DNA of 64,000 bases, from positions 186,001 to 250,000 of the forward strand of contig JAFRUE010000002.1 in the NCBI GenBank assembly GCA_017441925.1. Reading direction: 5' to 3'. Below the pieces are notes generated by a model. The model saw nothing but the letters and a program-made list of their open reading frames with translations, made no database searches and was not told the DNA's origin. How positions within the stretch are numbered: the first letter of the stretch is position 1; each line of letters opens with the position of its first letter. A program made the position numbers and the translations under genes. The DNA is from Bacillota bacterium (GTDB lineage Bacteria; Bacillota; Clostridia; Lachnospirales; Bianqueaceae). Below are positions 25,473-29,144 of the stretch, piece by piece.

Positions 25473-25546
25473 TCTGGGTAACAGGAGTTGAACCTGCGGC
25501 CTCTTGAACCCCATTCAAGCGCTCTACCAAACTGAGCTATACCCAG
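25473..25546 (-). tRNA. tRNA-Pro(GGG)
   Basis: 74 nt fold into a full cloverleaf: acceptor CTGGGTA/TACCCAG with discriminator A, a D-arm with AGCTCAGTTTGGTAGAGC, an anticodon stem CTTGA/TCAAG with loop ATGGGGT (anticodon GGG), and a T-arm GCAGGTTCAACTCCTGT. No CCA is encoded. It reads CCC and CCU proline codons. Confidence 0.95.
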
Positions 25547-26323: not shown

Positions 26324-27889
26324 TTACTCCGTGAGGTCCTGCGGTGCAGCTTCAGCGGGATCCGCAGAAGTCTCCACATGTACTTCCGTTACGTTATCCA
26401 GCCCGGTGAAGTTCACGTTCTTCGTGACCTTCGCCTCCAGGGTCTCCGCCTTCATGATCTCGGACGGATCGACTCCCGTAACGTTCTTGATGATGTCGAA
26501 AGTCTGTTTCAGCACAGCGGGCGTGATGGCAGTCACGCTGCCGGTCGGAGAACCGTCCGAACCATTTCCTGCAGAGTAGATATTGATGTTGTCGATCGAC
26601 TCCATCGGCTTTGCAGCCGCCGCAACAAGCTCCGGCAGGATCTTGATGTACATTTCGGCAAGCGCTACATTGTTGTATTTCTTGTAGGCTTCCGCCTTCT
26701 TGTCCATTGCTTCCGCTTCCGCGCGGCCCTTGGCCTCGATCGCCTCAGCCTCGGCGCGGCCTTTCGCCGCGATACCGGCAGCCTCCGCCTCCAGTTTGGC
26801 ACGGATTCCTTCGGCTTCCTTCTCCGCGGAATACTTGCTGGCATCCGCCAGCGCTTTCTGTGCGATCGCTTTCTGCTCCTGCTCGTACTTCTCCGCTTCC
26901 GCGGTCCTCTGACGGGTGATCAGCTCAGCCTCCGCGTCCTTCTCCGCACGGTACTTGTTCGCATCCGCGACCTTGCGGATATCTGCGTCCAGCTGCTGCT
27001 GCTTAACTTCGACTTCCTTCAGCTTCAGCTCGGCCTCACGCTCGGCGCGGATGATCTGCGCGTTCACGGTAGCGGCCTGTACGGCTTTCTGCTGCTCTTG
27101 CTCCTGAATGCGGTAAGCGGCATCGGCTTCCGCCTGCTTGACGTCGGACTCTTTCTTAAGCTCCGCGCGGCGGATGATCAGCTCATTCTGACGGGAGCTG
27201 ATCTGCATGTCGGACTGCACCTTCGCCTCATTAGCGGCTCTGGCAGCTTCTGCCTCAGCGATCGCCACATCGCGCTCCGCAAGAGCTTTCGCGATGGAAG
27301 CGTCCTTCTGGATCTGGGACATATTGTCCTGACCAAGCGCAAGGATCAGGCCCTTCTCGTCTTCGATCCTCTGGATATTGCAGGAAATGATCTCAATACC
27401 CAGCGCGTTCATATCCTTCTGCGCTTTCTCCTGGACTTCGTCACCGAATTTCTTACGGTCGGTATTCAGCTCTTTCAGACGGACCGTACCGATGATCTCA
27501 CGCATATTACCCTGCAGAGAGTCGGTCAGCGCCGTGATGATCATCTCTTCCTTCATATTCAGGAAGTTCTTCATCGCCAGCTGAATGCCCTCTTCGTCCG
27601 TCTTGACACGGACCTTCGCGACCGCGTCGATGTCCACGCCGATGAAATCAAGCGTCGGCACATAGCCGTTCGTCTTGATATCGATACTGATCTGCTTCAG
27701 GACCAGTGTATCTTTTCTCTCCAGGAACGGAATCTTGATGCCCGCCCGTCCGATCAGGACCTTGGGCTTTTTCTTGGGTCCGGAGATAATGTACGCGATA
27801 TCCGGCGGTGCCTTGACGTAGCCGGCCGCGACGATGATTCCCAGTGCGACAATGATTGCCGCGATAATGATGATCTGATACAGTTCCAT
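26324..27889 (-). CDS. Flotillin-like SPFH/Band-7 membrane protein under a Mn2+ riboswitch
   Basis: 521 residues from the ATG at 27889 (GGAAAAGG site); ten extra upstream codons lack support. An N-terminal membrane helix (about 4-26) is followed by the SPFH/Band-7 domain (about 30-200) and a long Ala/Glu/Lys coiled coil (about 200-420) with repeated AEAEA motifs typical of flotillins (FloT/YuaG, YqiK). The C-terminus is polar. Flotillins form oligomers at the cytoplasmic membrane face and organise membrane microdomains. No NfeD-type partner gene is adjacent. The leader carries a yybP-ykoY manganese riboswitch with a terminator platform, so expression should rise with Mn2+. Confidence 0.9.
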   Translation of the reverse strand: MELYQIIIIAAIIVALGIIVAAGYVKAPPDIAYIISGPKKKPKVLIGRAGIKIPFLERKDTLVLKQISIDIKTNGYVPTLDFIGVDIDAVAKVRVKTDEEGIQLAMKNFLNMKEEMIITALTDSLQGNMREIIGTVRLKELNTDRKKFGDEVQEKAQKDMNALGIEIISCNIQRIEDEKGLILALGQDNMSQIQKDASIAKALAERDVAIAEAEAARAANEAKVQSDMQISSRQNELIIRRAELKKESDVKQAEADAAYRIQEQEQQKAVQAATVNAQIIRAEREAELKLKEVEVKQQQLDADIRKVADANKYRAEKDAEAELITRQRTAEAEKYEQEQKAIAQKALADASKYSAEKEAEGIRAKLEAEAAGIAAKGRAEAEAIEAKGRAEAEAMDKKAEAYKKYNNVALAEMYIKILPELVAAAAKPMESIDNINIYSAGNGSDGSPTGSVTAITPAVLKQTFDIIKNVTGVDPSEIMKAETLEAKVTKNVNFTGLDNVTEVHVETSADPAEAAPQDLTE

Positions 27890-27943
27890 AACCTTTTCCT
27901 TTCCGAGCCCGCAGCTCATACCGGATTCTCTCTGCTATATGCA

Positions 27944-27987
27944 GTAAAAAAGACCTTTGCACATAACAGATGTTGCGCAAAGGTCTT
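27944..27987 (-). terminator. Riboswitch expression platform: intrinsic terminator
   Basis: Stem AAGACCTTTGC/GCAAAGGTCTT (27977-27987 with 27950-27960), then T6 on the minus strand. The 5' arm shares the CCTTTG bases that close aptamer helix P1, so P1 and terminator are mutually exclusive. Confidence 0.88.
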
Positions 27988-28069
27988 GCCTTTTCATTTG
28001 ACCGGTTGGAAATCCAACGTCCTGACGGTTCACAAACTCGTCCTTTCGGACTAAGGCTACTCCCCTTTG
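27978..28069 (-). ncRNA. yybP-ykoY manganese riboswitch aptamer
   Basis: On the minus strand the leader has the two diagnostic conserved blocks of this class: CAAAGGGGAGTAGC at the 5' side (28056-28069) and GCAAGACCTTTG at the 3' side (27978-27989). CAAAGG pairs with CCTTTG as helix P1. Between them are the hairpin GTCCGAAAGGAC and a pairable GTTGGATTTCCAAC element. The class binds Mn2+ and typically switches genes on. The promoter starts transcription almost at its first base. Confidence 0.9.
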
Positions 28070-28074
28070 ATAAT

Positions 28075-28103
28075 ATAATAACAAAGTTCGCAGCCGTTGT
28101 CAA
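28075..28103 (-). promoter_or_regulatory. Promoter of the riboswitch-flotillin transcript
   Basis: Minus strand: consensus TTGACA (28098-28103), 17 nt, TATTAT (28075-28080), directly before the aptamer. Confidence 0.85.
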
Positions 28104-28166: not shown

Positions 28167-29096
28167 TCAGAACCATTTTTTCTTCTTGCCGACGATAAGC
28201 AGTGCTGTCACGACCACGACCGAGAGTACGATCACATATATGTAACCGTATTTCCAGCCGAATTCCGGCATCGCCTGGAAATTCATCCCGTACCATCCTC
28301 CGATGATCGTGAGCGGGAAGAAGATCGTCGTAATGACGGTCAGGATATTCATCTTCTGATTCAGCTTCATGTCCAGCGAGGATGAATACGCGTCCTGCAG
28401 GTGATCGACCGAATCGCTGAGGGCCGAAGTATCCGCGAGCAGCCGTGCGGCTTTATTCTTCAGATTTGCAATATAGATCAGATTCCCTTCCTCAAATATA
28501 CCGTTCTCGTTCTCTTCGAGTGTCTCGGTCATATCCAGGATCTGTTCGTAGAAACTGCACTGCCTGAGCAGCTTTTTCTTCAAGTTCAGCAGTTTCTCGA
28601 TAAACGTACCGTCCGCCTCGCCCTTAAGAACAAGTTCTTCCATATCCGAAACAGTATTGCGTGTCTTTTCGACATTGAACTTGCCGTCCGAGATCAGCGC
28701 TTCCAGGAAATGGCTTACGACCTTCTCCGCCTTCTGCCCGCTGCCCGAGAAGCGGTGGATCGCGTTAAAGAACGCATTGCGCGTCGAATTGTCTTCGTCC
28801 CTGATATCGACTATCATAACGAAATTCTTCTTCAGATACATCGCGATCCAGTCATCTTCACCGCTCGGCGACGCGATCCGGACCTCCGTAAAGGTATAGT
28901 CGCTGTGGATCTCCTCTCCTGTCCTAAAAAGCGGACTCGCTTCCCGGCACTCCTCGACTGTCTCCGGATCAAATCCGAAGAACTGATAGATCTCCTCCAG
29001 CTCGCTGCCGGATACATATGCTGCCGTTACGGCATCCGGTCTGATCTCCTGCAATTCAATTTCACGGACCGGATCTCCCAGCTGATAATATGCCAT
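28167..29096 (-). CDS. CorA-family divalent cation transporter
   Basis: 309 residues from the ATG at 29096, which has GGGAGG upstream. A large N-terminal cytoplasmic domain and long helix lead to two C-terminal membrane helices with the signature YGMNF between them, and the tail KKKKWF. The pentameric channel imports Mg2+ or a similar divalent ion. It follows the YdcF-like gene by 48 nt in the same direction. It lies just upstream of, but outside, the Mn2+ riboswitch transcript. Confidence 0.92.
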   Translation of the reverse strand: MAYYQLGDPVREIELQEIRPDAVTAAYVSGSELEEIYQFFGFDPETVEECREASPLFRTGEEIHSDYTFTEVRIASPSGEDDWIAMYLKKNFVMIVDIRDEDNSTRNAFFNAIHRFSGSGQKAEKVVSHFLEALISDGKFNVEKTRNTVSDMEELVLKGEADGTFIEKLLNLKKKLLRQCSFYEQILDMTETLEENENGIFEEGNLIYIANLKNKAARLLADTSALSDSVDHLQDAYSSSLDMKLNQKMNILTVITTIFFPLTIIGGWYGMNFQAMPEFGWKYGYIYVIVLSVVVVTALLIVGKKKKWF

Positions 29097-29144
29097 CCGT
29101 ACAACCTCCCTCTGCCGATGCATGCCGCCGGCATTCCGTTTATT

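Follow-up and report, generated by a model that had tools for sequence, protein, structure and literature searches.

A promoter, an aptamer and a terminator precede a flotillin-like gene

The window, by which we mean the whole 64-kb stretch of DNA that was analysed, carries on its minus strand a flotillin-like SPFH gene headed by a structured leader. Read along that strand from 28103 to 27889, the order is promoter, aptamer, terminator and start codon. The features of the locus are as follows.

28167..29123, minus strand: CorA-family gene, upstream of the leader and on the same strand (Pfam CorA, 1.6e-43)
28075..28103, minus strand: sigma-A-type promoter, -35 TTGACA at 28103-28098, -10 TATTAT at 28080-28075, spacer of 17 nt
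27978..28069, minus strand: yybP-ykoY (Mn2+) riboswitch aptamer, of the subtype with the L3 of the L. lactis form (UCAnnnC), assigned with covariance models R1 and R2, the RF00080 match being under its cut-off
28064..28069, minus strand: 5' strand CAAAGG of the switch helix P1, partner at 27983-27978
28065-28056, minus strand: conserved block GGGGAGUAGC
28055..28063, minus strand: L1 loop GGAGUAG and 5' strand of P1.2
28057-28055, minus strand: GCC of P1.2, pairing with GGC at 27990-27988
28040..28051, minus strand: P2 hairpin GUCC-GAAA-GGAC, from sequence and fold
27997..28036, minus strand: P3, UUUG(UGA bulge)ACCG / CGGU-CAAA
28025-28019, minus strand: L3 loop UCAGGAC, inside P3
Within P3, minus strand: P3b, upper stem GUUGG/CCAAC
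27989-27982, minus strand: conserved block GCAAGACC
27978..27983, minus strand: 3' strand CCUUUG of P1, common to the 5' arm of the terminator
27945..27987, minus strand: intrinsic terminator, stem AAGACCUUUGC.. / ..GCAAAGGUCUU at 27987-27951 and then a U run; predicted OFF state
26324..27889, minus strand: flotillin-like SPFH gene, 521 aa, ATG at 27889-27887, alone behind the switch

A preliminary description made from the letters alone had named a promoter, both conserved blocks, P1 and a terminator overlapping P1, and all of these were found in place on the minus strand. The promoter scored 11 of 12 in a scan against the consensus. Because of the placement of its -35 and -10 elements, the transcript is expected to start at about 28069, with the opening base of P1.

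The flotillin-like SPFH nature of the target, also proposed at that stage, was confirmed by Pfam matches to Band_7 (4.7e-19, 69.5 bits) and Flot (4.6e-11, 43.3 bits), both above the Pfam cut-offs. The protein shares with the FloT/YuaG flotillins (PF01145 plus PF15975, NF058507) the combination of Band_7 and Flot and a match to the FloT model over almost its whole length. It differs from them in its NCBIfam FloT (NF058507) score, which at 256.3 bits was under the equivalog cut-off of 700, and in that its gene stands alone behind a Mn switch. The product is best described as flotillin-like only, orthology with FloT not being proven. A further in-frame ATG lies ahead of the gene at 27919.

The CorA-family gene carries a GMN motif and ends about 60 bases ahead of the switch promoter; it is probably a separate transcription unit. 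In G002, a genome of the same genus as that of the window (G000), the 3' end of a CorA-family gene also precedes the leader. A tRNA gene at 25473-25546 on the minus strand (64.6 bits) was the sole Rfam match of the window at curated cut-offs.

The genome of the window encodes MntP, whose gene was without an aptamer match in R1 and R2 searches, while a UPF0016 gene was not found in the family. We considered the flotillin as a stand-in for an absent exporter and dropped the idea, since the genome has MntP.

The leader is assigned to the yybP-ykoY class by models built from relatives

A significant match to RF00080, expected in the preliminary description, was not reached. At Rfam curated cut-offs there was no RF00080 match in the 64-kb window, and the leader alone scored 17.0 bits (E 0.0099) against a curated cut-off of 45 bits, which is a library cut-off and not a biological defining feature. 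The leader was the top RF00080 match of the whole 2.7-Mb genome. No aptamer in 146 related genomes passed the cut-off, and all 24 other sub-threshold matches in these relatives lay before P-type ATPase, UPF0016, MntP or CaCA-type genes. Mn-transport genes of these types are known targets of the class. The RF00080 search also left a named Lactococcus lactis control without a match at E 0.05. Because the same cut-off rejects all the aptamers of the relatives, the miss was not counted as a refutation; its cause is in the library model, whose cut-off is unfair for this clade. RF00080 at its curated cut-off overlooks the Mn riboswitches of the clade, and the regulon on record for the class is consequently an underestimate.

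Model R1 was made from 22 aptamers of relatives, with zero flotillin leaders among them and with a structure written by hand. On the 64-kb window it gave a sole match, at 27976-28072 on the minus strand (35.9 bits, E 8.9e-7), an independent confirmation of the Mn2+ riboswitch class suggested earlier. Model R2 scored the leader at 52.8 bits. The fold of the leader was better than that of 200 out of 200 shuffles (z -3.3). When 43 aptamers were fitted to R1, 24 of 26 pairs were changed on both sides; among the nine SPFH-linked aptamers the figure was 16 of 26, which was matched in 0 of 500 shuffles, and P1 covaried in both sets. The helices P1, P1.2, P2 and P3 around the junction are backed by covariation; the P2 counts are weak owing to its variable length and to slippage of the alignment at this helix. 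MAFFT alignments of three flotillin leaders and their relatives misplaced parts of P3, and the model-fitted A4 and A5 were used. The RF00080 score below the cut-off might be read as a chance likeness of an AT-rich leader that happens to have a terminator. This is refuted by the independent R1 match, by the recurrence of the leader with altered letters in G002, G003 and G389, and by the covariation, and we allow it practically no weight.

The features that mark the class, L1 GGGAGUAG at 28064-28057 and the AGAC of the 3' block at 27986-27983, are present and invariant or nearly so among relatives, GGGAGUA of L1 being invariant in their alignment. In crystal structures of the class an invariable L3 adenosine, A41 in L. 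lactis (UCA41AUUC) and A48 in X. oryzae, donates N7 to Mn2+ (PMC6754395). The R1/R2 alignment places the UCAGGAC of the window against UCA41AUUC, which makes A28023 the equivalent of A41 and shows the Mn-site adenosine to be kept. With the L. lactis yoaB type of yybP-ykoY (RF00080), the leader has in common P1, L1 GGGAGUAG, P2, P3, L3 UCA(A41)nnnC, the GCAAGAC block, the overlap of P1 with the terminator and, as predicted, the ON logic. It differs in its flotillin target instead of a transporter, in a 3-nt bulge in P3, in having no P4 and in a score under the Rfam cut-off.

The leader scored below most of its exporter-linked relatives (R1, 35.9 bits versus up to 88 bits). Together with the UGA bulge in P3 and the adjoining CorA gene, this would fit a copy that has kept the aptamer fold but has drifted, and that either responds to a different ion, for instance Mg2+, or has become constitutive. 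Against this, neither L1 nor the L3 adenosine has been lost, and the G389 leader, which has the same arrangement, scores level with any aptamer of the order; we consider drift of this kind unlikely.

RF02617 (SSRC10, Streptococcus sRNA 10) scored the window leader at 17.4 bits and the leader of G389 (L311:5128-5250, minus strand) at 43.2 bits, as might be expected if the leader were an independent small RNA akin to RF02617 and no riboswitch. Yet the Mn aptamer blocks and a terminator are part of the RF02617 consensus itself, as they are of the window leader, and the founding copy of RF02617 precedes a putative calcium transporter (PMC3675131). The differences are that RF02617 is filed as an sRNA and that the window leader reaches just 17.4 bits. 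Despite its sRNA label, RF02617 is probably a Mn riboswitch leader ended by its terminator, and a small RNA independent of the class is a very improbable account of the window leader. Judged by its sequence, the window RNA appears to be an ordinary member of the Mn riboswitch class, and its novelty would lie in the class of its target.

Anatomy of the switch predicts activation by Mn2+

The stem of the terminator was -20.7 kcal/mol by folding and is also found in the minimum free energy structure of the leader. A simple terminator scan did not pick it up in the window, probably due to a 2-nt bulge in the stem. The 3' stretch of P1 lies wholly within this stem (7 of 7 bases), and the same is true of all nine SPFH leaders, in which the 3' strand of P1 (7 of 7 bases) is within a terminator stem (-15.6 to -23.0 kcal/mol).

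In this class, Mn2+ joins L1 and L3 and thereby stabilises P1 (P1.1) (PMC6754395). At low Mn2+, the terminator would take the 3' strand of P1 and transcription would halt ahead of the flotillin gene. When Mn2+ is abundant, it would join L1 and L3 and P1 would stay closed, blocking the terminator so that flotillin could be produced. As P1 and the terminator are mutually exclusive and Mn2+ stabilises P1, Mn2+ should therefore turn the gene on. The ON logic of the preliminary description follows in this way from the P1/terminator anatomy and the published mechanism (PMC6754395), from which we infer both Mn2+ as the ligand of this RNA and the switching.

Mn aptamers recur before SPFH genes

R1 matched the flotillin leaders of G002 and of G003, a genome of another genus (E 2.7e-5 and 0.0013, respectively). 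The G002 flotillin is 96% identical to the window protein and that of G003 50%. Across 19 genomes of the family, R1 found 24 aptamers. The genes behind them were flotillin in three cases (G000, G002 and G003), HflK/HflC-like SPFH in four, OadB-like in six, MntP in five (two of these with a CaCA-type gene next) and P-type ATPase in three; a CitMHS/ArsB-type carrier, a LURP-one-like gene and a contig end accounted for one aptamer each. The HflK/HflC-like SPFH genes (about 298 aa) were found behind the switch in G004, G008, G011 and G014, which are four out of four genomes of genus g3.

The search was extended with model R2 to the order (392 genomes) and the class (391 genomes). Its top match in the order, at 74.6 bits, was in G389, directly before a flotillin, and an aptamer in G373 precedes hflK and hflC, both above the NCBIfam cut-offs. 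A genome survey for Mn aptamers before SPFH genes, an idea of the preliminary description carried out here with R1 and R2, thus yielded nine leaders in five genera: flotillins in three, HflK/HflC-like SPFH genes in a fourth and the hflK-hflC pair in a fifth.

Outside the family, 140 aptamers were assigned to targets by the nearest frames matching a reference protein in the next 1.5 kb, so that a few of the targets are second genes. They preceded MntP (47), P-type ATPases (35), UPF0016 (27), CaCA (12), OadB (8), ABC transporters (6) and SPFH genes (2), with three unassigned. SPFH genes thus lie behind 9 of 164 aptamers, or in four separate linkages when each set of relatives counts as one. There are about 3.6 SPFH genes per genome in the family, so that, on the assumption of 2300 genes per genome, a random gene is SPFH in about 1 of 600 cases. 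The linkage exceeds chance, with p ~1e-4 even for four linkages. It is sporadic: the aptamer was absent from 79 of 80 flotillin relatives in the genome collection, and the flotillin of G001, of the same genus as the window genome, is without it.

The four switch-bearing flotillins require three changes on a tree of 40 flotillin sequences. A tree uniting all four was rejected (p-AU 0.005), and one uniting only the flotillins of G000, G002 and G389 was weakly rejected (p-AU 0.03). Flotillin and switch travelling as one unit was rejected by the flotillin tree and the p-AU test. Because this result is joined by two SPFH linkages of other subfamilies, SPFH genes appear to have been recruited to the switch at least four times, provided that losses were not very frequent.

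SPFH scaffolds as candidates for the response to excess manganese

In the open-licence papers searched, the founding papers of the class excepted, 'manganese riboswitch' and SPFH were joined nowhere, and yybP-ykoY and flotillin occurred together only in a TerC study (PMC10550928), where the subject is co-purification and not regulation. SPFH genes appear to be a new target class of the Mn riboswitch. A riboswitch that reads one metal is a direct clue to SPFH function, namely that the scaffold would be made at high Mn2+. The clue is repeated across five genera and in both flotillin and HflK/HflC types of SPFH protein, which makes it testable, and it ties Mn homeostasis to membrane organisation. 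On this basis, scaffolds of this kind may well form part of how bacteria respond to excess manganese.

Two known systems bear on what the scaffold might do. In Bacillus subtilis, co-purification linked FloA and FtsH to MeeY (YkoY), a protein whose gene a Mn riboswitch controls, and FloT and FloA to the MeeY paralogue MeeF (PMC10550928). In Mycobacterium, the scaffold PacL1 gathers the exporter CtpC (PMC9374683). The PacL1-CtpC platforms offer a parallel in that a Glu/Ala-repeat membrane scaffold collects a metal exporter; they differ in that PacL1 is not described as SPFH and in that the platforms form without FloT, the mycobacterial flotillin being dispensable (PMC9374683). The likeliest reason for the recruitment is that a scaffold made on demand would help the membrane in Mn2+ excess, either by gathering or stabilising exporters or by steering FtsH-type quality control. 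The involvement of membrane scaffolds in Mn homeostasis, first suggested for this locus alone, is strengthened by the recurrence with other SPFH genes, and a role in Mn2+ handling is what we infer. For the wider proposition, that SPFH scaffolds (flotillins, HflK/HflC) form a recurrent, independently recruited branch of the Mn2+-excess regulon, with the task of organising or protecting exporters and FtsH-type quality control in the membrane, we put the chances at even.

The main rival to a Mn scaffold is a general role in envelope stress. The RNA would again be a Mn2+ riboswitch, but Mn2+ excess would stand for envelope or oxidative stress, and it is to this stress, not to Mn as such, that the flotillin would respond. 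General roles of flotillins and HflKC in membrane stress and quality control, as described in two papers (PMC8581546, PMC10434171), are consistent with this, as are the sporadic linkage within the family and the MntP gene of the same genome, which has no aptamer match. Against it, ion transporters make up nearly all other targets of the switch in both the order and the class, and the flotillins of B. subtilis co-purify with Mn-related TerC proteins (PMC10550928). We regard a stress role of this kind as a serious possibility, somewhat short of probable. The reading that we favour, and hold with considerable confidence, is that the leader belongs to the yybP-ykoY class and acts as an ON riboswitch for Mn2+ at the level of transcription, that SPFH genes have been recruited to this class repeatedly, and that the scaffold likely aids the response to Mn2+ excess.

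Other unusual targets of Mn aptamers

The genome of the window has a second Mn aptamer (G000:C4:495641-495735, minus strand), which R1 scored at 46.6 bits and RF00080 missed. It precedes a lone OadB-like gene (L316:2947-4236). OadB is the beta subunit of Na+-pumping decarboxylases, and in G000 no obvious carrier or alpha subunit adjoins the gene. The combination of aptamer and OadB-like gene was seen in six genomes of the family (including loci L318, L141, L149, L150 and L151) and for 8 of the 140 other aptamers; the OadB-like protein may be a Mn2+ exporter.

Mn aptamers in G018 were found before a CitMHS/ArsB-type carrier (L146:1731-2996, plus strand) and before a LURP-one-like (Tubby-like) protein (L158:960-1427, minus strand). 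ABC ATPases followed Mn aptamers at L174, L194, L232 and L242 in the order and in two more cases in the class sample; at L174, L194 and L242 a second frame resembling an FtsX-type permease came next, a kind of target unexpected for the class. A Mn aptamer in G124 precedes an apparent methyl-accepting chemotaxis-type protein (L217:218-1596, plus strand).
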